The notes beneath the pieces are model-generated. The model had not been told where the DNA came from and ran no database searches. It saw only the letters and a program-made list of their open reading frames with translations. 64,000 nt of DNA, from NCBI GenBank assembly GCA_034003725.1, contig JAVEYB010000005.1, positions 70,831-134,830 on the forward strand, given 5' to 3'. Both the position numbers and the translations under genes were made by a program. The stretch is from Candidatus Zixiibacteriota bacterium. GTDB lineage: Bacteria > Zixibacteria > MSB-5A5 > GN15 > FEB-12. Below, in pieces: positions 28,006-45,854 of the stretch; within the stretch, counting starts at the first letter, position 1; each line of letters opens with the position of its first letter.

Positions 28006-28746
28006 ATGGACACAGCCACTATGAGCACCGCCAATCCAACGGATCGGGGACCGTCGCGCGAAAACGTCGCGTCGATGTTCGACCGGATCGCGGGACGATA
28101 CGACCTGCTCAACCACCTGCTGTCAGCCAATCGCGACAGAAGCTGGCGGGCGCGAATGATTTCGCATCTTCCGCCCGGCAATGAACTGCACGTCCTGGAC
28201 CTCGCCACCGGTACCGCCGACCAGCTGCTGGCGCTCTACGATTCGGGCCGCCTTCGAGGAGGAATAGGCCTAGACCCGGCCGAGCAAATGCTGTCGATCG
28301 GGCGAAAAAAGATCGCAGGACGGATGCTCGACAGTGTGCTTCGCCTCGAGAAGGGCCGGGCCGAACGACTGCCGTTCGATGACAACGTCTTCGACGCAGT
28401 TACCATTTCATTCGGCATACGGAACGTCTCCGACGTTTCCACTTCGCTGCAGGAAATGCGACGCGTGCTTAAGCCCGGGGGCCGTGCCTTGATCCTCGAG
28501 TTCTCACTGCCGTCGAACTCGGTCCTGAGACGAGTGTACCTGTGGTATTTCCGCTCGGTCCTCCCCCGTCTCGGCGGGATTATTTCTGGTGACCGCACTG
28601 CCTACCGCTACTTGAACCGGTCCGTCGAATCATTCCCGTACGGCGAGGAGTTTCTCGGCCTGTTGCGGGCCGCCGGTTTCTCTGCCCCTGAACAGTATCC
28701 CCTGACGTATGGTATCGCCACACTCTATCGGGCGGACAAGAAATGA
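28006..28746 (+). CDS. menG: Demethylmenaquinone methyltransferase
   Basis: The protein has 246 residues of the UbiE/MenG family: 'VASMFDRIAGRYDLLNHLLS' (about 22-41), AdoMet-binding 'VLDLATGTADQ' (about 64-74), 'DNVFDAVTISFGIRNV' (about 127-142) and 'EMRRVLKPGGRALILEFS' (about 149-166). It makes the last step, methylating demethylmenaquinone. It is the first gene of the men operon and overlaps menF by 4 bases. An in-frame ATG at 28021 is an alternative start. No ubiquinone genes are present, so a menaquinone role is favoured. Confidence 0.92.
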   Translation: MDTATMSTANPTDRGPSRENVASMFDRIAGRYDLLNHLLSANRDRSWRARMISHLPPGNELHVLDLATGTADQLLALYDSGRLRGGIGLDPAEQMLSIGRKKIAGRMLDSVLRLEKGRAERLPFDDNVFDAVTISFGIRNVSDVSTSLQEMRRVLKPGGRALILEFSLPSNSVLRRVYLWYFRSVLPRLGGIISGDRTAYRYLNRSVESFPYGEEFLGLLRAAGFSAPEQYPLTYGIATLYRADKK

Positions 28747-30167: not shown

Positions 30168-31921
30168 GAGTAAGCACGGTCAACTTCAACGCTCTGTGGG
30201 CGTCGATTCTCATCGAGGAGTTAGTCCGACACGACATCTCACACTGCTTCGTTTCTCCGGGTTCGCGATCGACACCGCTGACTGTCGCAGCCGCCCGAAA
30301 TCCGCGCGTCACGACGGTGGTTCACTTTGATGAACGCGGCGCCGCGTTCGCGGCGGTCGGCTATGTGCGCGCGACATCGCGCCCAGCAGTATTGATCTGT
30401 ACGTCGGGCACCGCCGTCGCCAACTATTTACCTGCAGTAGTGGAAGCGTCGATGGATCGCCTCCCGTTGATAGTCCTGAGCGCCGACCGTCCTCCCGAAC
30501 TGCAGAACTGCGGCGCCAACCAGACGATCGTGCAGCCGGGTATTTTTTCGCACTACGCCCGATACGAATTGTTGCTGCCGTGTCCCGATCCTGAGATATC
30601 AGCCACGACTCTGTTGTCACGGATAGACCGGGTAGCCCGCGCGGCCATGACTGTTCCACGCGGACCGGTACACATCAATTGCCCGTTCCGGGAGCCGTTG
30701 GCGCCAACCGACGATGGCCGTGATTACACTACATATCTCAAGAGTATTGAAGCGTGGGGGTCGGGATCGTCCCCATGGTCACGCTCGACCGATCCAGACG
30801 GCGGCGTCGATCAAACAGCAGTGCACACGGTGTCCGGCATCATCGCCGGCACGGCCGACGGAATCATTGTCGCCGGAATGCTGACGTCGGAGGCCGACCG
30901 CGACGCCGTTCTCGCATTGAGCGAAGCAACCGGCTGGCCGGCACTCCCCGACATTCAGTCCGGCCTCCGACTTGGACTGCAGCACCCGAATGTCATTCCA
31001 AACTACGACCTGATTCTCCACTCAAAAGCCATGCAAACGGACCTGACGCCGTCGGTGGTGATCCACGCGGGTGGGAGAGTGATTTCAAAGCGCCTGTTGC
31101 AGTGGCTGGAACGGATCCGTCCCACGAGGTACGTGTGCATCGATGGCGACCTGCGGGACTTCGATCCGAACCATCAGGTTACAGACCGCATTCACGCTGC
31201 AATCTCCCGGGTCTGCCACGAATTGGTGAAGCAGGTACCGTCCGCGTCCCCCACGTCGAAACTGGCGGCCTGGCAATCACGTTCTGAACTGGTCGCAGAG
31301 ACCGTTGATCCGCTGATTGCCAACGGCGCGCTCACTGAGCCTGCCATCACTCATCTCTTGTCACAGCTTATGGATCGACATCACGCGTTGTGGCTGGCAA
31401 GTTCCCTTCCGATCAGACTGATGGACATGTACGGCGCGTCATCGAGCGCCTTGGTCCCGATTGGTGCAAACCGGGGGGCGAGCGGCATAGATGGAACGGT
31501 CGCATCGGCGGTGGGCTTCGCGCAGGGTCAGGCCAGGCCAGTAACTCTGTTGACGGGAGATCTGGCGCTGCTTCATGATCTCAATTCGCTGGCCCTCGTC
31601 AGGACATCGCCGCACCCGGTGACAATTGTCGTCCTTAATAACGACGGTGGGGGCATCTTCTCGCTTCTGCCGATCGCCGAGCACGGTGATGTATTCGAGC
31701 GCTACTTCACGACCCCGCACGGCATGAAGTTCGAGAACGCAGCAGCGCAATTTGACCTTGCCTACCGTTGTGTCCAGACACTTGACGACTTCCAAATTGC
31801 CTATGTCGAGCAACGCAGCTCGCGAACATCGATAATAATTGAAATACCTGTGGACCGCCGAACCACTGCAGATTTGATAAGGCGAGTCGAACGCTCGGTG
31901 GGCGAACTCGTACCGGAGTGA
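30164..31921 (+). CDS. menD: SEPHCHC synthase MenD
   Basis: The protein has 585 residues from the ATG at 30164, which overlaps the menF stop (ATGA). Thiamine diphosphate enzyme marks: 'SPGSRSTPLTVAA' (about 31-43), 'DERGAAFAAVGY' with the activating Glu near 56, 'LICTSGTAVANYLPAV', 'SADRPPEL', and the ThDP/metal motif 'LNNDGGGIFSLLP' near 491-503. It adds 2-oxoglutarate's succinyl semialdehyde unit to isochorismate. Length and motifs are normal, and no defect was seen. The next gene, menH, starts 7 bases after it. Confidence 0.94.
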   Translation: MRVSTVNFNALWASILIEELVRHDISHCFVSPGSRSTPLTVAAARNPRVTTVVHFDERGAAFAAVGYVRATSRPAVLICTSGTAVANYLPAVVEASMDRLPLIVLSADRPPELQNCGANQTIVQPGIFSHYARYELLLPCPDPEISATTLLSRIDRVARAAMTVPRGPVHINCPFREPLAPTDDGRDYTTYLKSIEAWGSGSSPWSRSTDPDGGVDQTAVHTVSGIIAGTADGIIVAGMLTSEADRDAVLALSEATGWPALPDIQSGLRLGLQHPNVIPNYDLILHSKAMQTDLTPSVVIHAGGRVISKRLLQWLERIRPTRYVCIDGDLRDFDPNHQVTDRIHAAISRVCHELVKQVPSASPTSKLAAWQSRSELVAETVDPLIANGALTEPAITHLLSQLMDRHHALWLASSLPIRLMDMYGASSSALVPIGANRGASGIDGTVASAVGFAQGQARPVTLLTGDLALLHDLNSLALVRTSPHPVTIVVLNNDGGGIFSLLPIAEHGDVFERYFTTPHGMKFENAAAQFDLAYRCVQTLDDFQIAYVEQRSSRTSIIIEIPVDRRTTADLIRRVERSVGELVPE

Positions 31922-31928
31922 TGCCGTC

Positions 31929-32738
31929 ATGACCAGCACCACTCCCGTGCTTGCGTTTCACGAAGGGGGGCGGCCAGACGGTCCCGCGGTTTTGCTTCTG
32001 CATGGATTTACCGGGTCGAAGGAGGATTGGCACGACGTAGAGCGGCGGCTGTCCGGGCAGTACCGAACGGTCGCGATTGACCTGCCCGGGCACGGCGAGT
32101 CGGCTTCGGTCGGAGTTAAGTGGTTCGCGATGGCGACGTGTGCCGGGGCCGTTATCGATGTCCTCGATCATCTCAAGATTTCCACGTGCGACCTGATTGC
32201 CTATTCCATGGGAGGGCGGCTGGCGATCCATCTGCTGATTCACTTCCCCGACCGGTTCGGGAGAACTGTACTGGAATCGACTACACCCGGAATTGAAGAT
32301 GGCGTGGAACGCGAAGCGCGGAGAGAGCTCGACGACAAGCGGGCGAGGGAGATCGAGACCACCAGCCTGTCGGCATTTCTGATGCGATGGTACGATCAGC
32401 CGATGTTTGCGGGCATGCGGACGCACGGAGGCCGTTTTGAGCGCCTGCTGCAGCGACGGCTTCGGGGCGATCCGACCGGGTTGTCCCGATCACTGCGTCT
32501 CATGGGTACGGGTTCACAGGAGTCGTACTGGGATCTGTTGCCGGAGATCAATCAGGAGATCAGGCTTGTCGTAGGGCAGTTTGACGGCAAGTTCCGAGTG
32601 CTGGCAGATCGAATGAGCCGCTTGTGCCCGCACGCTGAAGTTCGTATCATACCGGGGAGCGGTCACACCGTTCACTTCGAACAGCCCGACCGTTTCTGCA
32701 CGGAAGTTGAATCGTTTTTGTTGTCGAGGACGTCATGA
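31929..32738 (+). CDS. menH: SHCHC synthase MenH (alpha/beta hydrolase)
   Basis: The protein has 269 residues: '[12 protein letters not shown]' (about 24-35), nucleophile elbow 'AYSMGG' near 93-98 and C-terminal '[10 protein letters not shown]' with the catalytic His near 243. MenH removes pyruvate from SEPHCHC. The position between menD and menB supports the assignment over a general esterase. The acidic member of the triad is likely the Asp in 'GQFDGKF' near 216. Confidence 0.85.
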
Positions 32739-33556
32739 GCGCAATTGCCTGGGTCACAGCCGGTACGTTTTCGGATATCCAGTATCACAAGACCGACGGG
32801 ATCGCCAAAATCACCATCAACCGCCCGGAAGTGCGCAACGCTTTCCGGCCATTGACCGTGACGGAAATGTCGCAGGCGCTTGCCGATGCACGCGAGGACC
32901 AATCGATCGGCGTTGTCATCCTCACGGGCCAGGGCGAGAAGGCGTTTTGTTCGGGGGGCGACCAGAAGATTCGCGGCGATTCGGGCTACAAGGATGAGTC
33001 GGGCGTGCATCGCCTGAATGTCCTTGAATTCCAGCGACAAATGCGGACCTGCCCCAAGCCGATCATCGCCATGGTCGCCGGCTTCGCGATCGGTGGAGGA
33101 CACGTACTGCACTTGATGGCGGATCTGACGATCGCCGCCGACAACGCGATTTTCGGACAGACAGGACCCAGGGTTGGGTCATTTGATGGCGGGTATGGCG
33201 CCTCATACATGGCACGGATTGTCGGCCAGAAAAAGGCCCGCGAAATCTGGTTCCTCTGCCGGCAATACGACGCTCGACAGGCTCTCGATATGGGACTGGT
33301 GAACGCGGTCGTGCCGCTGGCACGACTCGAGGAGGAAACGGTTCAGTGGTGTCGCGAAATACTCGCCAATTCACCGATAGCGATCCGCTGCCTCAAGGCA
33401 GCCCTCAACGCCGACTGTGACGGCCAGGCGGGACTGCAGGAGCTGGCCGGAAACGCAACCATGCTGTTTTACATGAGCGAAGAAGGTCAGGAAGGGCGCA
33501 ATGCGTTCGTCGAGAAACGTTCGCCCGACTTTTCGAAATTTCCCCGCAGGCCGTGA
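32735..33556 (+). CDS. menB: 1,4-dihydroxy-2-naphthoyl-CoA synthase
   Basis: The protein has 273 residues of the crotonase fold: '[14 protein letters not shown]' (about 27-40), '[14 protein letters not shown]' (about 66-79), oxyanion-hole '[12 protein letters not shown]' (about 111-122) and '[13 protein letters not shown]' (about 143-155), the glycine/Asp signature of bicarbonate-type MenB. The C-terminal '[15 protein letters not shown]' is characteristic. It closes the naphthoate ring. It overlaps menH by 4 bases. Confidence 0.95.
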
Positions 33557-33562
33557 ACGAAA

Positions 33563-34459
33563 GTGGCTCCCATGAGCTCCGTATCGTTGAGCGTCTGGCT
33601 ATTAGCAGCACGTCCAAAGACGTTGCCGGCCGCGGTTGCCCCGGTTTTCATCGGGACCGTGATGGCGTATGTCGACGGGGGCTTTCATCTCTGGGCGGCT
33701 GTGGCAGCATTGTGCGGGGCGCTGCTGATTCAGATCGGCACCAACTACGCCAACGACTACGCGGATTTTGTCAAGGGGACCGACACCGCTGAGCGGGTCG
33801 GTCCTGTCCGTATCACACAAGCCGGGCTCGTGTCCCCCACCGCCGTTCGCAATGCGGCAATTCTTATATTCGGGCTCGCTTTTTTGATCGGCGTCTACCT
33901 GGTCTACCGCGGCGGATGGCCGGTCGTCGTGATCGGGTTATCGTCTATCCTGTTCGGCGCATTGTACACGTCCGGTCCGTCCCCACTTGCCTATAATGGT
34001 TCGGCCGACTTGTTCGTCCTCATTTTCTTCGGCCCCGTTGCGGTTGGAGGTACGTATTACGTGCAGACGCTGGCAATAACGGAATCGGTCCTGGTTGCCG
34101 GGCTGGCGCCCGGATTGTTCTCGGTGGCAATCCTGACGGTCAACAACCTCCGTGATATTGACAACGACCGGGTGGCCGGAAAACGCACGCTCGCCGTACG
34201 TTTCGGCAGGTCGTTCGCCTTTGGAGAGTACGTTCTCGCTGTCAGCGCAGCCTGCCTGGTGCCTGTATATCTGTTCGCTTTCGGAGATGGCCCCGTGACC
34301 GTGCTGGCTGCCGTTGCAGTACTTCCGGTAGCGTTGCCAAGTGTATCGGACATGCGCCATCAAAAGGGCTCGGCACTGAATAACACTCTCGCTGCCACCG
34401 GGCGCCTGCTGTTGCTTTACAGCGCCCTTTTCTGTTTGGGGTGGATGCGATGGATATAG
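33563..34459 (+). CDS. menA: 1,4-dihydroxy-2-naphthoate polyprenyltransferase
   Basis: The protein has about 295-298 residues; GTG at 33563 and ATG at 33572 are both possible starts, and no strong Shine-Dalgarno decides. It is an eight- to nine-helix UbiA-type membrane enzyme with 'NYANDYADFVKGTD' (first Asp-rich motif, about 53-66) and 'NNLRDIDNDRVAGKRTLAVRFG' (second, about 194-215). It attaches the isoprenoid tail to DHNA at the membrane. It starts 6 bases after menB and overlaps menC by 10 bases. Confidence 0.93.
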   Translation: MAPMSSVSLSVWLLAARPKTLPAAVAPVFIGTVMAYVDGGFHLWAAVAALCGALLIQIGTNYANDYADFVKGTDTAERVGPVRITQAGLVSPTAVRNAAILIFGLAFLIGVYLVYRGGWPVVVIGLSSILFGALYTSGPSPLAYNGSADLFVLIFFGPVAVGGTYYVQTLAITESVLVAGLAPGLFSVAILTVNNLRDIDNDRVAGKRTLAVRFGRSFAFGEYVLAVSAACLVPVYLFAFGDGPVTVLAAVAVLPVALPSVSDMRHQKGSALNNTLAATGRLLLLYSALFCLGWMRWI

Positions 34460-35547
34460 AATCTTTCGACATTTACACGTATCGACTCTCTCTCAACCGC
34501 CCCTTGGTTTTTCGCGGGCAGAGCTACCATGAGCGTGAAGGGATTCTTATTCGCCTCGGGTGTGGCGGTGACAGCGGATGGGGTGAGATTGCTCCGCTGC
34601 CGGGATTCAGCGTGGAAAATCGCGAGGCCGCCGTTGCGGCAACCAGAAGTCTGCGGCGTACTCTGCGAGGGTACACGGTCCCGGATTGCGTCGAGGAACT
34701 GTCGGGTGGCTTTGATCGATGGCTGGGTGCGTTTGACCTTCCTCCATCAGTCAGAACCGGCGTGGAGAATGCCGTTCTGTGTCTGCTGGCGGCACAGCGC
34801 GGAGAAGCGGTGGCAAATCTGCTGACTTCCGCGCCACGGCCGAGTGTGGCCGTCAACGGGCTTATTGCCGGCGGTTTCGAGAATATCGACAATGAGATCG
34901 TGCGCGTTCGTGAAGGACGATATCCGGCGGTGAAAGTGAAGGTTGGGCGTCAATCGATCTCGGAGGATGTCGCTACGGTGCATCATGCCTTTTCCCGACT
35001 GGGTGGAAGCGTTACAATTCGACTCGACGCCAACCGCGCGTGGGAATTCGTCGACGCAGTCCGGTTCGCCAACGACATCAACGGCATCCCACTCGAATAC
35101 CTCGAAGAGCCACTGGCCGACCCCACTCGTCTCTCCGACTTCGCCCGGATCACCGGAGTGCCGGTAGCGCTCGATGAGTCTGTTGTGGGACTTGCGCCCG
35201 AACAGCTGCCGGTGTTTGCAGGGCTTTCGGCTGTAATTCTTCGCCCGACCGTTTTGGGTGGACTAGAGAAGGCAATGCGTTTTGCCCGCCGCGCCCTCAA
35301 TGCCGGCGTGACCCCGGTGGTGAGTTCTGCCGTTGAATCTGCCGTTGGTGTTGCCGGTCTGGTGAACCTGGCAGCCGCAATGACAAAAGATGATGTCGCT
35401 GCGGGGCTGGATACGATCAGTTGGTTTGACCACCAACCTTCACAGACGCCGCTCCGTATGATCAACGGCCGAATCTCCGTTGACACGGCAATGGCTGTGC
35501 TTCGGTCGGTCGATGCCGCCCGACTGCAGGAGGTCTATGACGAATAG
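34450..35547 (+). CDS. menC: o-Succinylbenzoate synthase, Arg at the second catalytic Lys
   Basis: The protein has 365 residues from the ATG at 34450; GGGGTGG lies upstream and the GTG at 34441 is an alternative. It has the enolase-superfamily plan: 'WGEIAPLPGFS' near 44-54, 'VKVKVG' with the first catalytic Lys near 161-166, metal ligands in 'RLDANRAW' (Asp), 'LEEPL' (Glu) and 'ALDES' (Asp), and 'SSAVESAVG' near the end. In the usual 'VIKPTLTG' strand the Lys is replaced by Arg ('VILRPTVLGG'). MenC dehydrates SHCHC to OSB. The metal site is complete, so the enzyme is probably active, with Arg serving as the cation. It overlaps both neighbours. Confidence 0.9.
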   Translation: MDIESFDIYTYRLSLNRPLVFRGQSYHEREGILIRLGCGGDSGWGEIAPLPGFSVENREAAVAATRSLRRTLRGYTVPDCVEELSGGFDRWLGAFDLPPSVRTGVENAVLCLLAAQRGEAVANLLTSAPRPSVAVNGLIAGGFENIDNEIVRVREGRYPAVKVKVGRQSISEDVATVHHAFSRLGGSVTIRLDANRAWEFVDAVRFANDINGIPLEYLEEPLADPTRLSDFARITGVPVALDESVVGLAPEQLPVFAGLSAVILRPTVLGGLEKAMRFARRALNAGVTPVVSSAVESAVGVAGLVNLAAAMTKDDVAAGLDTISWFDHQPSQTPLRMINGRISVDTAMAVLRSVDAARLQEVYDE

Positions 35548-36982
35548 AATCCCCTGCCCGGTGGTCGAGGCGGCCCGGCTTTTTTGCGGTCATACCGCGC
35601 TGGTCGATCCGGCGCGAGCGCAGTCATTCGATAGCTTCGACCGGCAGACGTCAGCCGTGGCGCATCTGCTGACCGACCACGGGCTCCGCGAAGGCGATCG
35701 CCTGGCGTTGGTAATGGAGAACAGCGCAGCAATGGTCCTCGCTATCGCAGCGTGCGTGAGGCTGGGGGTGGTGTTTTGTCCACTGAATACGCGCTGGCCC
35801 ATGGCGATGCATGTCGATGCCATCGAAAGTATCGGCGCAAAAGCAGTCATCTCTGAACGCGACTTGAAACACGGACTCATTATTAGAATCGAAGACGTGC
35901 AGACCGCGGCGCGTGATTCGCATGATGAGCCTGTTGTCGATCCGCCGCTTCGCTCGCCGGACGCGCCCGCCGGGATTGTGTTTACATCGGGAAGCGCGGC
36001 TGAGCCGAAGGCTGTACTGCATACGTTGGGCAACTACCACTTCAATGCGCTGGGATCGAATCGCAATATTCGCTTTGGTCCCGGTGATCGATGGCTGCTT
36101 TCTCTGCCGCTCTATCACGTGGGCGGGCTGGGGATCCTCTTCCGCGCCCTTGCGGGGGGCGGAGCGGTGGTTGTCGCTGCGCGTGACGAACACACGCTGG
36201 AAGCAATACGGCGCTATCGCGTCACGCACCTGTCGCTGGTCACGACTCAGTTGCGCCGACTTCTGAGCGCCGGTGAGGATCTGAAGACGTTATCCCGGCA
36301 GATTAAGGCCCTTCTGGTCGGCGGCAGCACGGTACCGGATGTCCTGATTCACCGCGCTTGCGATTACGGCCTGCCCGTTTACAAGAGCTACGGGCTGACA
36401 GAGATGGCATCGCAAGTGACCACAACGAGTCCCCAGGATCTTCCCGCGCGACTTGCAACATCGGGATGCCCGCTTGAGTATCGCGAGATTCAAATCAACG
36501 AACAGCGGGAGATTCTGGTTCGAGGCCAGACGTTGTTCGCGGGTTATGTCAAAAAGGACGAGATCACGCGACCGGTGGATGATGACGGCTGGTTTGCTAC
36601 CGGCGATCTGGGAAGATTCGACCGGGAGGGGTATCTTACCGTTTTTGGTCGCCGTGATAATATGTTCGTCTCGGGTGGTGAGAATGTGATGCCGGAGATG
36701 ATTGAGCGGGCTTTGTGCTCACTCGATGGTGTCGAAGATGCGCTGGTCGTGCCGATAGAAGATGCCGAATACGGTCACCGTCCCGTGGCATTCGTGAAAA
36801 CGCCGGCCGGAACTCTGTTGCAGGCCGAGGACATGCGCAGGTCGCTGACACCCTTGATCCCTCGATATGCCATGCCGGTCCGCTACCTCCCCTGGCCTGA
36901 ATCGATTGCCGGAACGGGCCTTAAGCCGCTCCGTTCCGAATTCGCGCGACTGCTGTCAACGGGCGACTCTCCGAAGTCCTGA
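35537..36982 (+). CDS. menE: o-Succinylbenzoate-CoA ligase
   Basis: The protein has 481 residues from the ATG at 35537, which has GGAGG 4 bases upstream and overlaps the menC stop; a longer frame is rejected. Adenylating-enzyme motifs: 'GIVFTSGSAAEPKAV' (P-loop, about 144-158), 'YHVGGLG', 'KSYGLTEMASQVTT' (about 284-297), 'GDLGRFDREGYLTVFGRRDNM' and the C-terminal 'GTGLKPLR' with the catalytic Lys. It makes OSB-CoA for MenB. It is the last men gene, and its stop directly abuts the stop of the convergent thioesterase with no spacing. Confidence 0.93.
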   Translation: MTNRIPCPVVEAARLFCGHTALVDPARAQSFDSFDRQTSAVAHLLTDHGLREGDRLALVMENSAAMVLAIAACVRLGVVFCPLNTRWPMAMHVDAIESIGAKAVISERDLKHGLIIRIEDVQTAARDSHDEPVVDPPLRSPDAPAGIVFTSGSAAEPKAVLHTLGNYHFNALGSNRNIRFGPGDRWLLSLPLYHVGGLGILFRALAGGGAVVVAARDEHTLEAIRRYRVTHLSLVTTQLRRLLSAGEDLKTLSRQIKALLVGGSTVPDVLIHRACDYGLPVYKSYGLTEMASQVTTTSPQDLPARLATSGCPLEYREIQINEQREILVRGQTLFAGYVKKDEITRPVDDDGWFATGDLGRFDREGYLTVFGRRDNMFVSGGENVMPEMIERALCSLDGVEDALVVPIEDAEYGHRPVAFVKTPAGTLLQAEDMRRSLTPLIPRYAMPVRYLPWPESIAGTGLKPLRSEFARLLSTGDSPKS

Positions 36983-37378
36983 TCACAGTTCTTCGAGAAC
37001 TTCTACGAGTTCCTCCGGCAACGCCCGCTTTCGCCCCGTGTCGACGTCGACACAAACATGTACCGTTGAGACGGTGCCCACCTCGCCCTCGTCGCTGAGT
37101 ATGCGGTAGCCGAGCGTGAATGACGTATTGCCGATCCGGCTGGTCTTCATTTCAATGGTCAGCTCCTGGCCGACCGCCAGAGTTTTCGTGAAGTCGGCTT
37201 CGGCGTGAACGATCGCCAGCAGGTAATCGCGCTCCGCGAGAATAGTAAGGAAGCTGAGTCCGTTGTCGTACAAGAAGCTTTCATAGCAGTCGTGCGCCAT
37301 CTTGAACTGGTTGGCGAAAAACAGCAATCCGGCGGCGTCGGTATCGTGGAGCCGCACTGAAGTAACAAACTGGTACAT
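36983..37378 (-). CDS. Hotdog-fold acyl-CoA thioesterase, likely DHNA-CoA hydrolase
   Basis: The protein has 131 residues, the length of YbgC/FadM-type hotdog enzymes. 'LHDTDAAGLLFFANQF' (about 10-25) holds the catalytic Asp of the 4HBT family, and the rest follows with 'SFLYDNG', 'ADFTKTL' and a final 'STVHVCVDVDTGRK'. Such a protein supplies 1,4-dihydroxy-2-naphthoyl-CoA hydrolase, the one men step otherwise absent. It faces menE, with stop codons back to back. A broader acyl-CoA thioesterase role is possible; the men neighbourhood makes the DHNA-CoA role likely. Confidence 0.75.
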   Translation of the reverse strand: MYQFVTSVRLHDTDAAGLLFFANQFKMAHDCYESFLYDNGLSFLTILAERDYLLAIVHAEADFTKTLAVGQELTIEMKTSRIGNTSFTLGYRILSDEGEVGTVSTVHVCVDVDTGRKRALPEELVEVLEEL

Positions 37379-37492: not shown

Positions 37493-40069
37493 TCATCGTC
37501 CGTCAGTGGGCACGAGCACGAAGTCTATGCCATCCACAACGGCGCCGCCATCGACCGGCGCCACATCGAATTCGATCTGTGCAGGAATGCTCACGTACCC
37601 ATACCGCTCCAGTTGGGCCGGATCGACATAGGCCCGGTACTGACCCGGCAGCAGCCCGAGATAGTAGAATTCCCCGTCGTTGAAACTGGTCACTTCGGTG
37701 ACCGTTTCCTTTGAGACATTGTATAACAATACCCGAACACCGCCTATACCGTTGTCGCCCTGCTCAGTTCGGCGTGCAACCGACCCGTTGATCTCGCCTG
37801 CCATAACGACCGGTACTTTAATCTCCGTCACCATGTTCGGACTCACCGTAACGCGGAAATTCTCGTGCGTGGGTTTCAGCAGCGGGTTATCCAGGCTGTA
37901 CTGATCGATTTGAACGAGGTAGTTGTCGTACGCGCGAAGGCGATCGTAGTAGTAGACGCGGTCTCTTCCCATGGGTCGTCCGCCGGCGCCCTGGATCTTC
38001 GCACGCATGCCCGGCAGGTATTCATCGGAGCCGTCGTACTCGCCGTTGTGGTTGCGATCGAGATACGGTCGGACGACTGCCGCGCCGTATCCCACCTGGT
38101 TTCGCCGTTCGAATCGAACGCTTTTGGCCGCATCATCATACTGCACCGATCCACGCTGCATCTGGTTCCATCGCGTGTCCGTACTGCTGCGGCTCACACG
38201 GCTGGTGAGGCCGACAAAATCCGTGAGGACGTCGAGCGTGACAGAAAACTGATTCGACCGGGTAAGTTCATTCCGTTCGAACGACAGCGTCGCCTGGACC
38301 GGCCGAAACAGGCGCTTCGACAGGAATATGGCGTAGCGGCTGAACCGGTTGGTGTCGTGTTCGTAATCGAGCCTCACTTGTGGACGAATCCATCGGATGA
38401 AAGTCGGCGAGACGATCAGCTGGCTGCTGGTGATCGCCGACGTGCGCGTCTCGTTGGCGGTCAGCTTCGTCCGTCCGAGGTAGTTCAGCGACACCAGCGG
38501 CAGGGCGGCGCTGAACCCGTAAGACATGCTCGTCGTCCTGACCGACTGCCGGGCCTCATGCAGTACATTGTACCGCAACCCAAAATAGCGTCCCTTGATC
38601 CGGAGCGGCGCCGACGCCGCAAACGAGAGGCTGTAGTCCCGCTCCGTGTAATTACGAACCGGGTTTTCGAAATAGCGTGTCGCCTCGGCGCTCAGGCTGA
38701 TGACCGATAACTGGCTGAAATTGACCGCGAGCCCGGCCTCATTATTCGGGGAGAATCGGGAGTTAATGGTGAGATTGGTCAGCGGTTGATATGTGACATC
38801 GGCCGCCATCGTCAACCTCGAACTATCGGGCGTGGTCACCGGGATGTCCGCTGAAACGCCCGCCGTCACGTTATCCAAAACACCGTAGTACGCGGTCCCC
38901 TGGGCGAATGTACCGGTCTCGAACCCGCGGTCGATTTCTCCTCCGGCAACGGTGTATTCGACGGCATTTTTGGGTATCAGGTTGTACGGAATCGCGATGA
39001 AATGCTCTTCGGTTCGCAGTTCGCCGTTCGGCCCGTACATCTTGAGTGTGACCAGCGAGGAACCGTAAACGATGTCGAGGTTGAAGTCGTACTCCCCGTT
39101 CTGATTGGTGTACATGAAGTCGGTGAGTTTGTTGTCGACATAGAGCTCGACCTCCCAACCGTCTCCGAGAAAACCGTTGAGGCGGACTGTCTGGAAGTAC
39201 TGACGCTGCACCTGCGGCCGGTTGGTTATCAAGCCGCCATCGAGACTTCGGGCCAGCGGACCGGGCGTAGATACCTTGCCGAGTTCAGCCTGGGTAATCC
39301 AGTCGTTATTCTCAACATAGTAATGCCAGCGCGGGTTGATGCGGTCGGCCGACAATCCCTGCGCCGTATTGCCGGAGGCGGCGACGGTCAGATCGCCGCC
39401 CAATACGACTCCCCCCGCCGTCACGTCATAGTAATGATCGTCGTCCAGCGGATTCGAAGAAACCGTCCAGTCCAGCGAACCACCGGCAAGGTATCGCCGG
39501 CTGAGCGGCAGGTCCCGGACATCTCGCAACGCGATTGATTCCCGGCGAAGTTTGTCCTGGGCCATTTTGCGCTGGAGCTTCTGCCATGCGGGAAGATCCT
39601 GATCGAGCTTCATGTAGACGCGCAACATTGAAAAATCGAACGCCAGGTCCAACCCGAAAAACGCCTCGAACAAATCGATCTTCAGGTACAATTCGTACGG
39701 CGTGGTGATGTAGTCGGACGGCGTCAGCGCGAACTCCCCCAGGTGACTGCGGGCGACATGCGCTTTGAGATCCAGTTCATAGCGCTGGTTTTGATTGATG
39801 AAAAAGCCGTATGCAATTTGGTTGTTCAAATCGACCTGTGCGTTGAGATCGAGCATGCGGAAGGTTTCGATCAGCGGCAGAAAAATCGACTGGCCGTCAT
39901 ACAGCACGAACAGATCCGACTTGAGTAGGCGCTGAACCTCGAACGTCACAACAATTTCCTCGTGCTGTGGCTGTTGTGCGCGAGCCGAAACAGTGAGAAT
40001 GAGTCCAATCGTCCAGAAGACCACAGCGGACATCACACGTACAGTGCGTATGCAGGATCGTGTGCGCAT
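37493..40069 (-). CDS. Usher-like outer-membrane protein of a fibre-assembly locus
   Basis: The protein has 858 residues from the ATG at 40069; the TTG two codons upstream is less likely. A signal peptide ends near 'VSARA'. An N-terminal region (about 30-160) has 'LFVLYDGQSIFLPL' and 'RYELDL', typical of usher-like proteins of the TcfC/alternative type. The barrel contains the plug-like stretch 'GWEVELYVDNKLTDF' followed by 'NGEYDF' near 300. Then comes a C-terminal 'DRNHNGEYDGSD' segment and a carboxypeptidase-regulatory-like beta domain ('GEINGSVARR', 'NDGEFYYLGLLPGQY'). It should secrete and anchor the DUF4402 subunits. It is the last gene after the chaperone. The usher call rests on the plug-like motif and context. 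Confidence 0.7.
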   Translation of the reverse strand: MRTRSCIRTVRVMSAVVFWTIGLILTVSARAQQPQHEEIVVTFEVQRLLKSDLFVLYDGQSIFLPLIETFRMLDLNAQVDLNNQIAYGFFINQNQRYELDLKAHVARSHLGEFALTPSDYITTPYELYLKIDLFEAFFGLDLAFDFSMLRVYMKLDQDLPAWQKLQRKMAQDKLRRESIALRDVRDLPLSRRYLAGGSLDWTVSSNPLDDDHYYDVTAGGVVLGGDLTVAASGNTAQGLSADRINPRWHYYVENNDWITQAELGKVSTPGPLARSLDGGLITNRPQVQRQYFQTVRLNGFLGDGWEVELYVDNKLTDFMYTNQNGEYDFNLDIVYGSSLVTLKMYGPNGELRTEEHFIAIPYNLIPKNAVEYTVAGGEIDRGFETGTFAQGTAYYGVLDNVTAGVSADIPVTTPDSSRLTMAADVTYQPLTNLTINSRFSPNNEAGLAVNFSQLSVISLSAEATRYFENPVRNYTERDYSLSFAASAPLRIKGRYFGLRYNVLHEARQSVRTTSMSYGFSAALPLVSLNYLGRTKLTANETRTSAITSSQLIVSPTFIRWIRPQVRLDYEHDTNRFSRYAIFLSKRLFRPVQATLSFERNELTRSNQFSVTLDVLTDFVGLTSRVSRSSTDTRWNQMQRGSVQYDDAAKSVRFERRNQVGYGAAVVRPYLDRNHNGEYDGSDEYLPGMRAKIQGAGGRPMGRDRVYYYDRLRAYDNYLVQIDQYSLDNPLLKPTHENFRVTVSPNMVTEIKVPVVMAGEINGSVARRTEQGDNGIGGVRVLLYNVSKETVTEVTSFNDGEFYYLGLLPGQYRAYVDPAQLERYGYVSIPAQIEFDVAPVDGGAVVDGIDFVLVPTDGR

Positions 40070-40107
40070 AGACAATACTCATTCCGTGCGGATGCCGTCG
40101 CTTTCCG

Positions 40108-40974
40108 TTACTCTACCGTCATGGTGTAGGTGACGTCGTTTCCCGCCAGCATATCTTCGCGCGCAACGTCGGAGCGCCCCTCGCTCGTTACCTTCACATC
40201 GAGCGTGAACGGTCCCCTGAACTGCGTGCGGTCAAATTCCATGTCGACGCGCCTCAGGAGGTCGTCATAGACCGCGATGTTGAACTCCTTCTCCGCCGCG
40301 GTTCGGCCGTCGCCGTCGGCCAGCACACATCGCAGGACGCCCATGTAAGAGGCGTTGCCGGTGTTTCGCATACCCAGCATCACCTCGGCGCCCTTCTCCG
40401 TGAGTCGTGCCGAGCGGTCGGTCAGCTCCATATGAGTGACGCAATCGCCGTTCCGATACTTGAGCATGATGGCGGTTTGCATCACCATGTTGAGCCGGGT
40501 GGCAATCTGGTCGTCATCCCCGGGGGACGGCAGGCTGCCGGCGCCCTCACGCGACGTGACGACTATCCGCGCCCAGTATTCCCCATCCCGAAGGTCCTGT
40601 GGCGGGCGCGCGACCAGCCGGATGACCTGGGTACCGTTGGGCGGAACGACAATCCTTCGGGGAAACGCTTTCACCCAGTCCACCGCCGAACGAGGATGGG
40701 TTATGTTGCTGTCCTGTAGCTGGACATACACGTTGCCGAGACTGTCCGATTCGGGCAGCCCAAACGCCAGCCGTACGCTGATCTCCCTCGGTTCGTTTGA
40801 GGTGTTCTGGACCTCCAGCCGTCCGGTCCGGTTGTTGTCGGAGATAAATACGACTGTCGGCGCCACCAGCACGCCTGCGGTGGCGGTGCCCACGGCGATA
40901 CCGGCGAGCAGCACGACGATCGTCACGATCGGCGTGAATAACTTCCGTGATACGAACGTATTTGTAACTGTCAT
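40108..40974 (-). CDS. PapD-like periplasmic chaperone
   Basis: The protein has 288 residues from the ATG at 40974, chosen because AGGAA lies 8 bases upstream and a signal peptide follows directly ('FTPIVTIVVLLAGIAVGTATAG'); the frame also runs back to a GTG at 41055 that overlaps the first DUF4402 gene. The first Ig domain has 'VVFISDNNRTGRLEVQNTSNEPREISVRL', and the second strand set has 'AFPRRIVVPPNGTQVIRLVARPPQDLRDGEYWARIVV', the pattern of pilus chaperones (Lys/Arg that anchors the subunit C-terminus, then the G1-like strand). It should hold subunits in the periplasm and deliver them to the usher. Confidence 0.75.
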   Translation of the reverse strand: MTVTNTFVSRKLFTPIVTIVVLLAGIAVGTATAGVLVAPTVVFISDNNRTGRLEVQNTSNEPREISVRLAFGLPESDSLGNVYVQLQDSNITHPRSAVDWVKAFPRRIVVPPNGTQVIRLVARPPQDLRDGEYWARIVVTSREGAGSLPSPGDDDQIATRLNMVMQTAIMLKYRNGDCVTHMELTDRSARLTEKGAEVMLGMRNTGNASYMGVLRCVLADGDGRTAAEKEFNIAVYDDLLRRVDMEFDRTQFRGPFTLDVKVTSEGRSDVAREDMLAGNDVTYTMTVE

Positions 40975-41051
40975 CTCAGGACTTCCTGTCGGTACTGTGG
41001 TCTTCCCTTTGCTACAAGCTATGTCCACGGTGCGAGGTTTCTCAACCATAA

Positions 41052-41612
41052 TCACGTGCCCTCGTAGGCCACTGTGATTACGATGTCCGCCTCATATGAG
41101 CCGGCGCGCTGACCGATTCGCGGATAGACCGTTCCTCCGAGATAGACGCTGGTAGTACCACCGCCGCCGATCGCCGTTCCCGAGGGAATGCCGTAGGGGC
41201 TTATGTCCGGCCATCCGCCGCCCCATGCGCCCCCGGGATTGCCGGAGCCGGTCGAGTCGATCGAGCACCCGGTGGGGCCGAAGACGATATTCATGCGATC
41301 GCTGTTGTCGGACAGCGAGAGATACTCCGGCAACTGGAAATAGATCAACACGCGCGCGCCGCCGGATCCCGTGATCGTGAAGATACCGGCGTCCGCATCG
41401 TCGTTGGCAATCGCCACGGGGACTCCCTGATAAACAGTCCCGAATGCGAGCGAAGCCGTGGCGCTGACGGTTATCGCCTGCACCACGGTTGCTGTCGCCG
41501 AGCCTATAGCAACGTCGTCTGCTGTGGTCGACGCCGCAGCTATCAGCAGGGTAGCACCAAGGCCGATGAGAGTCCGCCGATTCGGGATACCTGCGAAGTG
41601 CTGCCTATGCAT
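41052..41612 (-). CDS. DUF4402 secreted subunit 1
   Basis: The protein has 186 residues with a signal peptide (about 1-30). The mature start 'DDVAIGSATATVVQAITV' is followed by 'LAFGTVYQGVPV', 'AGIFTITGSGG', 'FQLPEYLS' and the closing 'LGGTVYPRIGQRAGSYEADIVITVAYEG'. These are DUF4402 marks, an all-beta sandwich. It is nearest to subunit 2 of the same locus. GGAGG lies 11 bases before the ATG. It is cotranscribed with the chaperone and usher, so it is a likely structural or minor pilin-like subunit. Confidence 0.8.
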   Translation of the reverse strand: MHRQHFAGIPNRRTLIGLGATLLIAAASTTADDVAIGSATATVVQAITVSATASLAFGTVYQGVPVAIANDDADAGIFTITGSGGARVLIYFQLPEYLSLSDNSDRMNIVFGPTGCSIDSTGSGNPGGAWGGGWPDISPYGIPSGTAIGGGGTTSVYLGGTVYPRIGQRAGSYEADIVITVAYEGT

Positions 41613-41751
41613 TTCGCGACTGGCCTCCTGTTCAAAATTCGTACACCGGCCGTCATGGCGGTGAACCGTTGGTCACTTATGTGATCGACCAACTGTGCAA
41701 AATCTTAACAGGCTGGCGTTTTTTCCCTAATGGGGTGCAGCCGGCTCGGGC

Positions 41752-41779
41752 AAAAAGAAACCGGCCCTGGGGCCGGTTT
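41752..41779 (-). terminator. Strong terminator after subunit 2
   Basis: AAACCGGCC (41758-41766) and GGCCGGTTT (41771-41779) pair perfectly around a CTGG loop. On the minus strand the stem leads into CTTTTT (plus A run 41752-41756). It lies 37 bases after the subunit 2 stop. Confidence 0.85.
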
Positions 41780-41815
41780 CCCGAAACTATAGCTTGTTGT
41801 CTAACTGATTGCTAA

Positions 41816-42364
41816 TCAGTCACCTTCGTACCAGACAGTCAGAACGATGTCGGCCGTGTAGGTTCCTGAAGCCTGGTAGGCTTTTGGGGTCACCTTACCG
41901 CCGAGGAAGATGTTTGCCGTGGTCTGGCCGGCAGCGATGGTGATCGAGCCGAGGTTACGCGGATCAAAGTCGGCGCCCACGTACGATGCCGGCGTGGCGT
42001 TACCGGTAAGATCAAGACCGGCATCCGTGTCCGTGAAGGTGAGGTCGAGACGCTGCTTCGACGTGTTGTCCCACAGGTACTCCGGCAGGTTCAGAAACGC
42101 CTGGAACGGCTGGGCCGGCTGACCCGTCACCGTAAAGACGCCTGCACCGGCAGCATCCTTGGCCTGCGTCTTAGCGACGCCCGCGTAGACTGTTCCGAAA
42201 TCGAGATCGGCCGGCGTCGTGATCGCCAATGCGGTGGCAACCGTCGCTGTCGCGTTGCCGATGCCGACATCGTTCGCGAACGCCGCACCCGTAACGACCA
42301 TTACCAGACCAACCGCGATCGCGGTCACGGTCGACACTGCGCGATGATTTCTCTTCCTGTCCAT
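41816..42364 (-). CDS. DUF4402 secreted subunit 2 (likely major subunit)
   Basis: The protein has 182 residues from the ATG at 42364, with GGAG 6 bases upstream; an ATG four codons earlier (42376) is less well placed. The signal peptide ends 'GAAFA'. The mature protein begins 'NDVGIGNATATVATALAI', then 'DLDFGTVYAGVAK', 'AGVFTVTG', 'NLPEYLWDN' and 'LGGKVTPKAYQASGTYTADIVLTVWYEG'. It is followed by a strong terminator, so it can be transcribed separately and in excess of the genes below, as major pilins often are. The role as main fibre subunit is inferred from that. Confidence 0.8.
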   Translation of the reverse strand: MDRKRNHRAVSTVTAIAVGLVMVVTGAAFANDVGIGNATATVATALAITTPADLDFGTVYAGVAKTQAKDAAGAGVFTVTGQPAQPFQAFLNLPEYLWDNTSKQRLDLTFTDTDAGLDLTGNATPASYVGADFDPRNLGSITIAAGQTTANIFLGGKVTPKAYQASGTYTADIVLTVWYEGD

Positions 42365-42543
42365 GTTGCTCTCCATGTTTATCTGAGCCTTGTTAAGTAC
42401 GTATCCCTGTATTCAGCGAGCCTCGCAGCGTTCGCTTTATCCATTGATCGAACGCCGCTCAGCGGAAGTTCAGGGGGAAAGCCCATTAATTATGGGAACG
42501 ATCCAAACTCTGATCGATTCTTGAACAGGATGGAGATTCGGTC

Positions 42544-43038
42544 CTAAAGCCCGGTATAAGCGACAGTTACAACGATATCTGCGGAGTAGTCGCCCGGCGG
42601 CTGAGCAAGCTTCGGCACTACCTTTCCTCCCAGCCAGACGGTCAGGCCCGCAGACCCCAGGCGATATGTGATAACATCATATGGATCAAGGTCATCGACA
42701 GGCGGTGAAGATTGGTCCGGGGTGGAGCTGGAATCGAGAGCGCAACCGGTCTGCGGAAACAATATCTGCATGGTGTAACCGTTCTGACTCATATAAGTGG
42801 GGAGCGCAAAGCTGATGCTGACTTCATCGCCCGCTGTCCCGGTGATCAGAAACTCTGCTGCCGAACCAGCCGTCGCCTGGTCGACCTCTTTCGGAACTCC
42901 CGGATACACGTAGCCGAAAGTGAGGTCCTGGTTGACCACCACGCTTTGCGCCACAGCTACCCCCGGCAGCAGCATTGTTGCCGCCGCCAGAACGGGTGCC
43001 GTTCGAACAATCTTTGTCAGTACTCGGCGTGCATACAT
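42544..43038 (-). CDS. DUF4402 secreted subunit 3 (short N-terminus)
   Basis: The protein has 164 residues. The signal peptide ends 'GVAVA'. The mature start 'QSVVVNQDLTFG' lacks the 'GIxxATATVxxxxxV' strand seen in the other three subunits, about 13-15 residues. Otherwise 'YVYPGVPKEVDQATAGSAAEFLITG', 'FALPTYM' and 'LGGKVVPKLAQPPGDYSADIVVTVAYTG' are standard. The closest relative is subunit 4. Loss of the first strand could make it a capping or tip unit if that strand is the donor. That is speculative. Confidence 0.8.
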   Translation of the reverse strand: MYARRVLTKIVRTAPVLAAATMLLPGVAVAQSVVVNQDLTFGYVYPGVPKEVDQATAGSAAEFLITGTAGDEVSISFALPTYMSQNGYTMQILFPQTGCALDSSSTPDQSSPPVDDLDPYDVITYRLGSAGLTVWLGGKVVPKLAQPPGDYSADIVVTVAYTGL

Positions 43039-43104
43039 CGCCGAAACATCGCAGTACCATGCCCACGACGCAACATCAAAACGACAAGAGGATGCAGAGT
43101 TGGG

Positions 43105-43491
43105 TTACTGGTCAGCGTAGATAACGGAGACAAATACGGTATCAGCGCCGTTCCAAAGGGTATCCGCCTTCGGGATCCTGCACTGTCCGTAAACGAACGG
43201 CAATCGGTGAGGCGGCGAAGTGTCCTCGGAAACCGTAAGGTTTGTCCTTGTCGGATCGAAGGAGGTGTGATATTGCACAGCAGGAACGTTCGAAGGCGTG
43301 GCCCAGACATCGAGGACTTCTCTCGCGGAATCAGTCGTGATGCCGTGCGGCGAGATCACGGTGGCCCGGACCCGAATGGTCGACGAGACCGATAGGGGTG
43401 GACATCGGTCCGCGGATTGGGCGAAGGAAGCACCAATAGCCGTACCGATAACCAACACGTATAGCGCAACCCACTGAGTTTTTGTCAACAT
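43105..43491 (-). CDS. Small secreted protein of the fibre locus
   Basis: The protein has 128 residues with a clear signal peptide ('WVALYVLVIGTAIGASFAQ'). The mature part is beta-rich, has two Cys ('DRCPPL' and 'GQCRIP', likely a disulfide) and ends 'DTVFVSVIYADQ', which echoes the DUF4402 end ('IxxTVxYxG'). It is not a recognisable DUF4402 protein. Lying between subunits 3 and 4 in the same direction, it is probably part of the same extracellular structure, perhaps a minor unit. Confidence 0.5.
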   Translation of the reverse strand: MLTKTQWVALYVLVIGTAIGASFAQSADRCPPLSVSSTIRVRATVISPHGITTDSAREVLDVWATPSNVPAVQYHTSFDPTRTNLTVSEDTSPPHRLPFVYGQCRIPKADTLWNGADTVFVSVIYADQ

Positions 43492-43590
43492 TCGGTACCC
43501 GGAAATCGTGATGTGTGCACGATTCCAAGATACCGTTCATCCGAATCATGTCAAGCTGCCCGCCAGAGGACGGTGGACTGGGTGCGAAGA

Positions 43591-44112
43591 TCAATTCCCC
43601 GTATACGTTACGGTCATCGTTATGTCCGCACTATAGTCGCCGCCGGTCTGTGACACGGCTGGCGTTACGGTGCCGCCGATCCAAATCCACAATTCACCCG
43701 AGCCACCGAGGTTCAGCACATTCGGACCGTTTGGGTTAATCACACCAGTTGGCGCGATCTGACTCCCGGAGCCATCATCAAACGACGCGGCCGTGGAGTT
43801 GAAGCTCACCGGCATGGTAGAACCGCTCGACACATGGCTCAGAGCCGGCGGCAAATCAAAGGTCACCGATACTTCGGCCAGCGACGCTCCCGTAACTTGC
43901 CATTCCCCGGCGGAGCCAACCGTTGCTTTGTCGATTGACTTCGGCACTCCGGGGGTAACCGCTCCAAAGTCAAGGTCGTGACTGCCTTGAACAGACATCG
44001 ACGACACGACTGTCGCCACGGCCTGAATTATCCCTACCTCCTGCGCCTCAGCGCCCGATACACAGGCCAGCAGCAGCAGGGCTACGACAATTTTACTCAC
44101 TGGTGAGTTCAT
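43591..44112 (-). CDS. DUF4402 secreted subunit 4
   Basis: The protein has 173 residues with a signal peptide ending 'GAEA'. The mature start 'QEVGIIQAVATVVSSMSV' precedes 'DLDFGAVTPGVPKSIDKATVGSAGEWQVTG', 'FDLPPAL', and 'IGGTVTPAVSQTGGDYSADITMTVTYTG'. It groups with subunit 3 by the GVPK...D.AT.GSA motif. It is the first minus-strand gene of the locus, with GAGGG upstream of the ATG. The 158-base gap to the divergent 44271 gene must hold its promoter, but none is obvious. Confidence 0.8.
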   Translation of the reverse strand: MNSPVSKIVVALLLLACVSGAEAQEVGIIQAVATVVSSMSVQGSHDLDFGAVTPGVPKSIDKATVGSAGEWQVTGASLAEVSVTFDLPPALSHVSSGSTMPVSFNSTAASFDDGSGSQIAPTGVINPNGPNVLNLGGSGELWIWIGGTVTPAVSQTGGDYSADITMTVTYTGN

Positions 44113-44270: not shown

Positions 44271-45854
44271 GTGGCCTGCAGGAATGGACCCCTACCGCCC
44301 GAAATGAAACAGGTTTCAACGGTTAAGAACCGACCCGTGCCGGCCGATTCAGTAAGTGTGCAACAATTGAACAGGATACTCGCGATTTCGGGCTTTGTTG
44401 CCCTGACGCAGGCATCGCCAATGGCAGTGTATTGCCAGGAGTTGATGTGGGAGACGGGGTACGGCGGTCTGCTCAACGATGTCGGTTATGGCATGTGCCC
44501 GGTAGCTGACAATGGCGTTGTACTGGCCGGCTCTACGTTTTCGTTCGGCGCCGGGGATTATGACACCTATGTTCTGCGGCTCGACTCGCTTGGCGATACG
44601 CTCTGGTCGGTTACCTGGGGCGGCAGCTCCAGCGATCACGCCTACGACATTGTATCGTCGGCCGACGACGGTTTTGTGGTGGTCGGGTCGACTCAGTCTT
44701 TCGGCAACGGTGGTCGCGACGTCTGCCTGTTTAAGGTGAGCGGAACCGGCCACGTGATGTGGACCCGCAGTTTCGGCGGTACATCAGACGACATAGGCAA
44801 TTCTGTCCGCTGTCTGCCGGACAGTGGTTTTATCATCGCCGGTACGACATCGTCTTCCGGTGCGGGATATGACGACATCCTGCTTATCCGTACCGACAAA
44901 AACGGACTGGTACGCTGGCAGCGCACGTATGGCGGAACCGGCGGTGAAACCGGGATGGCGGTTCGCACCGTTGCCGGCATCAATCCCGGATACATCGTGG
45001 TCGGATCCACTGGGTCATTCGGTGACGGGTACAGCAGTATCTATGCGATCAGAACGGACACGTTGGGGGACACGATATGGACTGCTACTTACGGAGGGTC
45101 CCGTGCCGATATCGGGCAGGCTGTCGAGGCCGCGGCCGACGGGGGCTTCCTGATCGCGGGTGCAACCGCCTCGTACGGCTCAGGTTTCTATGACTGCTAC
45201 GTCGCGCGGACTGATGCCGACGGTGTGCTGCTATGGCAGAACTGGTATGGAGGCGCTAAAGATGACCGCTGTTACGCAGTGGCGGCTACTCCGGACCATG
45301 GGTGGATTCTGGCCGGCACATCCGAATCGAGTGGCGCAGGGAAGATCGACATATTACTCACGCGTATCACGGACGACGGCGACCCCGTCTGGTCCCGTAC
45401 GATTGGAGGCACCGAATCCGACTATGCCCGGGCGGTCGTGCCGACGGCGGACGGCAATACGCTGGCGGCCGGGTATTCTTACTCGTACAGCTATGGTGGC
45501 TCCGACGTTTACGTGGTCAAAATCCGAGGGGACGCTATGACCGCCGTGTTCGAGCAATCGTCGTCGGGTTTGCCTGCCGCAGCGGCGTTGGAACAGAACT
45601 ACCCAAATCCATTCAACGCAAGCACCACAATCACATTCGATCTCACGAGCCAGTCTGCCGTAGAGCTGGCCATTTTCAATATCCTTGGACACACGGTGAG
45701 GCAATTCACACAGAGTCTCCTTCCGGCCGGCCGGTACCGGGTGGAATGGGATGGGACCGACGATCACGGCAGACCGGTTGCATCGGGCGTGTATCTCTAT
45801 CGGCTCTCCACCGGATCAGCGAGTCTTTCGAAGAAAATGGTGCTCGTGAAGTAG
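44271..45854 (+). CDS. Secreted propeller-like repeat protein with T9SS-type sorting domain
   Basis: The protein has 527 residues. The GTG at 44271 is chosen because AAGGAGG sits 10 bases upstream; an ATG at 44304 is possible. About seven repeats of ~50 residues (about 60-420) carry 'DGGFxIAGxTxSxGxGxxD' and end 'DxxWxxxxGGxxxD', as in SBBP-like beta-propellers. The C-terminal ~85 residues begin 'NYPNPFNAS' and end 'KKMVLVK', the FlgD-like type A sorting domain that marks export by type IX-like secretion. It is probably cell-surface or released. It reads away from the DUF4402 genes. Substrate or ligand is unknown. Confidence 0.8.
   Translation: MACRNGPLPPEMKQVSTVKNRPVPADSVSVQQLNRILAISGFVALTQASPMAVYCQELMWETGYGGLLNDVGYGMCPVADNGVVLAGSTFSFGAGDYDTYVLRLDSLGDTLWSVTWGGSSSDHAYDIVSSADDGFVVVGSTQSFGNGGRDVCLFKVSGTGHVMWTRSFGGTSDDIGNSVRCLPDSGFIIAGTTSSSGAGYDDILLIRTDKNGLVRWQRTYGGTGGETGMAVRTVAGINPGYIVVGSTGSFGDGYSSIYAIRTDTLGDTIWTATYGGSRADIGQAVEAAADGGFLIAGATASYGSGFYDCYVARTDADGVLLWQNWYGGAKDDRCYAVAATPDHGWILAGTSESSGAGKIDILLTRITDDGDPVWSRTIGGTESDYARAVVPTADGNTLAAGYSYSYSYGGSDVYVVKIRGDAMTAVFEQSSSGLPAAAALEQNYPNPFNASTTITFDLTSQSAVELAIFNILGHTVRQFTQSLLPAGRYRVEWDGTDDHGRPVASGVYLYRLSTGSASLSKKMVLVK

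Follow-up and report, generated by a model that had tools for sequence, protein, structure and literature searches.

DUF4402 subunits, a PapD-like chaperone, and a divergent usher in Zixibacteria: a probable separate class of chaperone-usher system

Known chaperone-usher systems and the DUF4402 locus

Three structural classes of chaperone-usher systems have been described from Proteobacteria, and archaic systems are listed also from Cyanobacteria and Deinococcus-Thermus and from no other phylum (PMC4654587). The classes are the classical one, with Fim, Pap, and Caf1; the archaic (sigma) one, with Csu, CupE, and the spore coat U systems; and the alternative one, with the alpha/CFA-I, TcfC-like, and ECP systems. 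Here we analyze an operon within a 64,000-nucleotide stretch of DNA (the window) from a member of Candidatus Zixiibacteriota, a phylum of the Fibrobacteres-Chlorobi-Bacteroidetes (FCB) group; the named relatives found through its chaperone are of the same phylum. The operon combines DUF4402 proteins with a PapD-like chaperone and an usher. We consider it quite likely that it is a chaperone-usher fiber system belonging to a separate class that has not yet been named, and from its components we infer that it very probably builds a surface fiber. The type V pilus of Bacteroidetes is not known to have an usher, and it was set aside for that reason.

The original prediction, made from the nucleotide sequence alone, described the locus as a little-described FCB version of the chaperone-usher pathway. 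Its assignment to an FCB genome and to this pathway stands, with usher, chaperone, and pilin homology each found. The literature searched (subscription literature lay outside the search) contained no mention of DUF4402, no link of chaperone-usher systems to Zixibacteria, and nothing joining “carboxypeptidase regulatory-like domain” with usher and chaperone. The prediction nevertheless understated the case, as homologous loci exist in Proteobacteria.

The operon

The seven predicted genes (four for DUF4402 proteins and one each for a small secreted protein, a PapD-like chaperone, and a plugged-barrel usher) are all present as open reading frames (ORFs) on the minus strand at window positions 37493-44112, in the order d1, small gene, d2, d3, d4, chaperone, usher:

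43591-44112, minus strand: d1, secreted DUF4402 subunit and first gene of the operon, with the N-terminal donor-strand-like extension EVGIIQAVATVV; an ortholog is kept at the same place
43105-43491, minus strand: small secreted protein that has only a donor-strand-like segment (SxxIxVxATVIxPxG) in common with the DUF4402 subunits; predicted terminator or adaptor
42544-43038, minus strand: d2, DUF4402 subunit without the N-terminal extension; predicted tip or first-assembled subunit
41816-42376, minus strand: d3, DUF4402 subunit with the donor-strand-like extension NDVGIGNATATV; candidate shaft subunit
41052-41612, minus strand: d4, DUF4402 subunit with the donor-strand-like extension DDVAIGSATATV and an immunoglobulin (Ig)-like core in its AlphaFold2 model; candidate shaft subunit
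40108-40974 (the ORF opens at 41055), minus strand: PapD-like periplasmic chaperone, likely start ATG at 40974
37493-40069 (the ORF opens with TTG at 40075), minus strand: outer-membrane usher with signal peptide, N-terminal domain, plugged beta-barrel, and C-terminal beta domains

For the chaperone, the ATG at 40974 is a more probable start than the GTG at 41055, because Met28 is invariant in 26 sequences, and the usher probably starts at an ATG two codons inside its ORF, near 40069. Apart from d1 to d4, no DUF4402 genes were found in the genome. The correct Pfam accession of this family is PF14352, not PF13617 as first given; d1, d2, and d3 score above its curated cutoff and d4 falls just below it (E 9e-5, 23.6 versus 25.2 bits). 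The shared motif LGGxVxPxxxQxxGxYxADIxxTVxY, seen in the original reading, is present in all four (with IGG in d1).

The usher

Comparison of profiles with hhalign aligns 26 Zixibacterial ushers with six Escherichia coli K-12 ushers (94.9%, E 4e-8) over the plug, the barrel, and the first C-terminal domain; within this region the plug-exit stretch PYNLIPKNAVEYTVAGG is matched to PYSSVPLLQREGHTRYSITAG of FimD. Six archaic ushers align similarly (94.2%, E 1e-7), and the negative controls, TonB-dependent receptors and LptD, give no match to the Zixibacterial usher profile. The plug spans approximately residues 295 to 360 and interrupts the barrel; it is followed by C-terminal beta domains at approximately 690 to 758 and 760 to 857. 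An AlphaFold2 model built from six sequences is of low confidence (mean predicted local distance difference test [pLDDT] score 59.9), and Foldseek nonetheless returns FimD and PapC structures as its 16 best PDB matches (E 1.5e-18 to 4e-8), with LptD after them at 1e-6. By profile and predicted fold, the window protein is a true usher, with a plugged barrel homologous to FimD and PapC. The evidence for homology comes from the full-length profile and the predicted fold, since neither the isolated plug nor the N-terminal domain alone can be aligned with known ushers.

The C-terminal “regulatory-like” domain pointed out in the original prediction is indeed there. It sits at the position of the second C-terminal domain (CTD2) of ushers and is weakly alignable to CTD2; a profile of the C-terminal part compares with archaic ushers at 58.5%. 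With moderate confidence we take this domain for CTD2, so that it is probably not an unusual addition. In one relative (locus L058, G041:C8, 11884-14541) the usher frame is broken by an in-frame stop into 666 and 214 amino acids, by pseudogene formation or sequencing error.

The chaperone

The window chaperone matches PapD_N weakly (E 0.02), 17/26 members of its family match at E 0.1 or better (best, 3e-6), and the family profile aligns with K-12 chaperones at 92% in hhalign. A single proline is the only invariant residue of the chaperone superfamily (PMC4654587). Its counterpart, Pro132, is found in all 46 chaperones compared: 38/38 of the main Zixibacterial clade and 4/4 and 4/4 of the proteobacterial and second-type sets described below. 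Judged from these alignments, the product is a PapD-like two-domain periplasmic chaperone.

The classical carboxylate anchor (Arg8/Lys112 in PapD/FimC numbering) is largely missing. The Lys position holds Met, Ala, Ser, Pro, and similar residues, with no Lys among the residues listed, and the Arg position holds Val, Ser, Ala, or Ile in the 38 main Zixibacterial chaperones and Arg in the other 8. Main-clade chaperones have a strand-F arginine (Arg163, 37/38) and a domain-2 tyrosine (Tyr263, 38/38), which may form a nonclassical anchor; they were compared with Arg89 and Tyr196 of CsuC, the arginine through a remote profile alignment and the tyrosine through inspection.

Subunits, donor-strand tails, and the small protein

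The predicted structure of d4 (AlphaFold2, 20 sequences; mean pLDDT 83.7) has a compact all-beta, Ig-like core, much of it above 90, and a free N-terminal tail in which residues 26 to 47 are unstructured. Foldseek ranks only chaperone-usher pilins among its 11 best PDB matches, with Csu first, followed by Caf1, FimF, PapE, CsuE, FimI, and CfaB; at E-values of 4e-3 and above these matches are individually weak, and their ranking is consistent. The DUF4402 profile aligns over its full length with spore-coat-U pilins (hhalign, 93.8%, E 2e-7; 95.2% for proteobacterial DUF4402) and has no detectable similarity to Fim pilins (1.6%), so that the link to pilins runs solely through the spore-coat-U family. 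Profiles and model together support the view that the DUF4402 proteins are Ig-like fiber subunits.

In d1, d3, and d4, the signal peptide is immediately followed by a stretch of about 15 residues, xVAxGxATATVxxxLxV, which recalls the alternation typical of donor strands in pilins (PMC4654587). This tail is absent from 33/33 d2 orthologs and present in the other subunit types; the hydrophobic core is separated from the LxFG motif by 11 to 21 residues in d2 versus 25 to 34 in the other types, a range that leaves out two d1 entries with cut or masked N termini. Because under donor-strand exchange a tail-less subunit can only come first, d2 is predicted to be the fiber tip. The small protein has the tail motif SxSIxAxATVxxPxG in nearly all loci, and its profile matches that of d1 (hhalign, 94.6%) over 32 tail columns only; beyond the tail it is highly variable and has no recognizable DUF4402 core. 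A tail without a core could donate and perhaps not accept a strand, which suggests a terminator, the role of FimI and PapH (PMC10673952).

We find it rather unlikely that d2 is instead a soluble or base-located partner whose tail loss has some other meaning, with the small protein as the tip cap. Such an arrangement would suit the two genomes with two d2 genes and the small protein's being the most variable component, as is often the case with surface-exposed tips. It sits badly with the tail that the small protein keeps and with the inability of a tail-less subunit to join behind another, established for pilin domains of the FimH/PapG type.

With d2 as the predicted tip, assembly would proceed as follows. 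The Sec pathway would bring the DUF4402 subunits into the periplasm as Ig-like domains one strand short, and the chaperone would complete each of them there. The usher would recruit the chaperone-subunit complexes to its plugged barrel in the outer membrane and catalyze donor-strand exchange: the groove of each subunit would be filled by the N-terminal tail of the next one to arrive. Able to accept a strand and unable to donate one, d2 would be secreted first; d1, d3, and d4, with tail and core, would form the shaft or serve as adaptors; and the small protein would end the chain. The fiber would lie on the cell surface and might serve adhesion or biofilm formation. What the computation shows is the homology of usher and chaperone, the folds of usher and subunit, the pattern of tails, and the conservation of the operon.

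A somewhat unlikely variant is that the system makes a thin, flexible or capsule-like coat of the Caf1 kind, with the DUF4402 paralogs as alternative coat subunits. Caf1 is among the closest subunit structures, no subunit has a second, adhesin-like domain, and certain proteobacterial loci encode one or two subunits, each with a tail. In the Zixibacterial loci, the order of the four to five different subunits is fixed; one of them invariably lacks the tail and one is invariably reduced, which looks more like a fiber with specialized positions.

Distribution in Zixibacteria and Proteobacteria

The usher is encoded in 49/61 genomes of relatives, and the predicted subunit-chaperone-usher order (d1, d2, one to three d3/d4-like DUF4402 genes, chaperone, usher) is kept in 29 loci, the window included, all from the same order of Candidatus Zixiibacteriota; for these reasons, the locus is far beyond chance. 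In a search of 132 genomes across the phylum, full-length usher matches cluster in this order, and other families of the class have a few. Of the 31 loci that have d2, 26 contain a small secreted ORF between it and d1. In locus L038, an ORF for an 889-amino-acid serine/threonine-kinase-like protein (3097-5766) splits the otherwise compact operon between d1 and the small gene. This conservation, in 29 loci and across phyla, makes it barely credible that the genes are unrelated neighbors, namely, those for a barrel transporter with a TTR domain and for an adjacent family of secreted proteins, and that no fiber is made. The annotation of usher homologs merely as “carboxypeptidase regulatory-like domain-containing protein” would fit such a view; the homologies of usher, chaperone, and pilin, each found independently, speak against it.

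A tblastn search with the window usher detects plasmid-borne homologs in Polaromonas, Novosphingobium, Sphingopyxis, and Pseudoalteromonas. In the four proteobacterial loci inspected, the usher homologs, annotated where at all as “carboxypeptidase regulatory-like,” adjoin DUF4402 and chaperone genes, and their profiles match the window family in hhalign (usher, 100%, E 4e-68; chaperone, 99.9%, E 2e-34). These loci have the same gene order and tailed subunits, and those of Polaromonas and Pseudoalteromonas include one tail-less DUF4402 subunit each. They differ in forming a separate subtype with fewer subunits, whose chaperone keeps the Arg anchor position. No description of them was found in the literature searched.

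On the conjugative plasmid 2 of Polaromonas sp. strain JS666, IS6-family transposases lie on both sides of the DUF4402 locus (L087, 1963-2679 and 8850-9566), which may be mobile as a composite element. In the Pseudoalteromonas xiamenensis plasmid, the locus is flanked on both sides by genes for SPOR-domain proteins (L090, 1772-2257 and 7074-7712), which perhaps link the fiber to peptidoglycan.

A few Zixibacteria carry a second, divergent chaperone-usher locus: L067 (G036:C9), L069 (G014:C1), L073 (G044:C58), and L074 (G047:C151). Its ushers group with those of the proteobacterial plasmid loci, and at least two of these genomes also have the main type, which suggests horizontal transfer.

Relation to the three known classes

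Maximum-likelihood trees place the DUF4402 ushers in a single group, separated with 100/100 support from those of the classical, archaic, and alternative classes; the trees are unrooted, compare very divergent sequences, and leave out beta, kappa, and pi ushers. Between classical and archaic ushers the profile match reaches E 2e-40, versus approximately 1e-7 for DUF4402 ushers with either; proteobacterial DUF4402 ushers reach E 5e-13 with archaic ones.

Classical systems share with the window locus the plug, barrel, and first C-terminal domain (CTD1) of the usher, for which FimD and PapC are the closest folds, and the invariant chaperone proline; the terminator-like subunit recalls FimI and PapH. 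They differ in that window-type chaperones show no Lys anchor in any of the sets and, in the main Zixibacterial clade, no Arg anchor either, that the window usher falls outside the classical clade, and that DUF4402 is unlike the Fim pilins. With the alternative class the general pathway is the same, but its ushers, in a set of five sequences, are a separate clade, with hhalign values of 0.2% for TcfC and 2.2% for EcpC, and by profile DUF4402 subunits are unrelated to CS1 pilins. The window usher has no match to the Pfam TcfC-type family either, and the original description of it as TcfC-like has to be dropped.

Archaic systems resemble the window locus in the order subunit-chaperone-usher and the N-terminal alternating donor-strand pattern; DUF4402 profiles align remotely, over their full length, with spore-coat-U pilins, and Csu is the best structural match. 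These last two points, and the strand-F arginine and domain-2 tyrosine if they match the nonclassical anchor, would favor placing the locus within the archaic class as a divergent member. We regard this as unlikely, given the usher E-values above, the 100/100 branch that splits DUF4402 ushers from all three classes, and the lack of the strand-F arginine in proteobacterial and second-type chaperones. The window usher is also unmatched by PF00577, and the window subunits are matched by DUF4402. Archaic systems have a gene for a two-domain spore-coat-U tip adhesin after the usher; the window locus has none, and its candidate tip is single-domain and tail-less.

Every superfamily feature that could be tested was found in the locus, and the features of each known class were absent or not clearly present. 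We conclude that the DUF4402 systems appear to be a new, deep class of their own rather than an FCB oddity, since homologous loci occur in Proteobacteria. A more specific proposal, that this fourth class split off before the classical, archaic, and alternative ones, is near-core in one order of Zixibacteria, and has a tail-less single-domain tip and a donor-strand-only terminator, seems to us an even bet.

Several observations weigh against a chaperone-usher assignment or its details. Even with the E-value limit set at 10, PF00577 (Usher) has no match anywhere in the genome, and the window usher matches no Pfam usher or NCBIfam model, finding only TTR-like C-terminal families; from databases alone, this would not be called an usher locus. 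Of the profile searches proposed at the outset, those for DUF4402 and, weakly, PapD thus succeeded, and that for the usher family did not. When profiles of the usher, the chaperone, and DUF4402 are searched against PDB sequences, no convincing relative appears. The predicted template modeling score of the usher model is low (0.33), the plug and N-terminal domain fail to align by themselves, and nothing matches the d4 model at E below 1e-3. The chaperone match lies mainly over domain 1, and main Zixibacterial chaperones have neither classical anchor residue. Novosphingobium and Sphingopyxis loci show no tail-less subunit, and two related Zixibacterial genomes have tandem d2 genes (L066, 6742-7669; L068, 7332-8283), possibly alternative tips. 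All named relatives are metagenome-assembled genomes.

A separate class missed by the usher model would mean that surveys of surface fibers undercount them, with usher genes of tens of genomes hidden under the “carboxypeptidase regulatory-like” label. The pathway would extend to the FCB group, DUF4402 would gain a function, and the origin of the chaperone-usher pathway would gain an outside reference point. Simple, testable predictions on tip and terminator follow from the subunit that lacks the tail and the small protein that shares only the tail.

Neighboring genes

Directly past the usher end of the operon, at window positions 28006-37378, lies a menaquinone-biosynthesis-like cluster (menG/F/D/H/B/A/C/E-like ORFs, assigned by eye). 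On the plus strand, 44271-45854 and 53770-56760 encode secreted proteins, one of them directly divergent from the operon, with a C-terminal YPNPFNxxTxIxFxL...KMxLxK domain that resembles a type IX secretion sorting signal.

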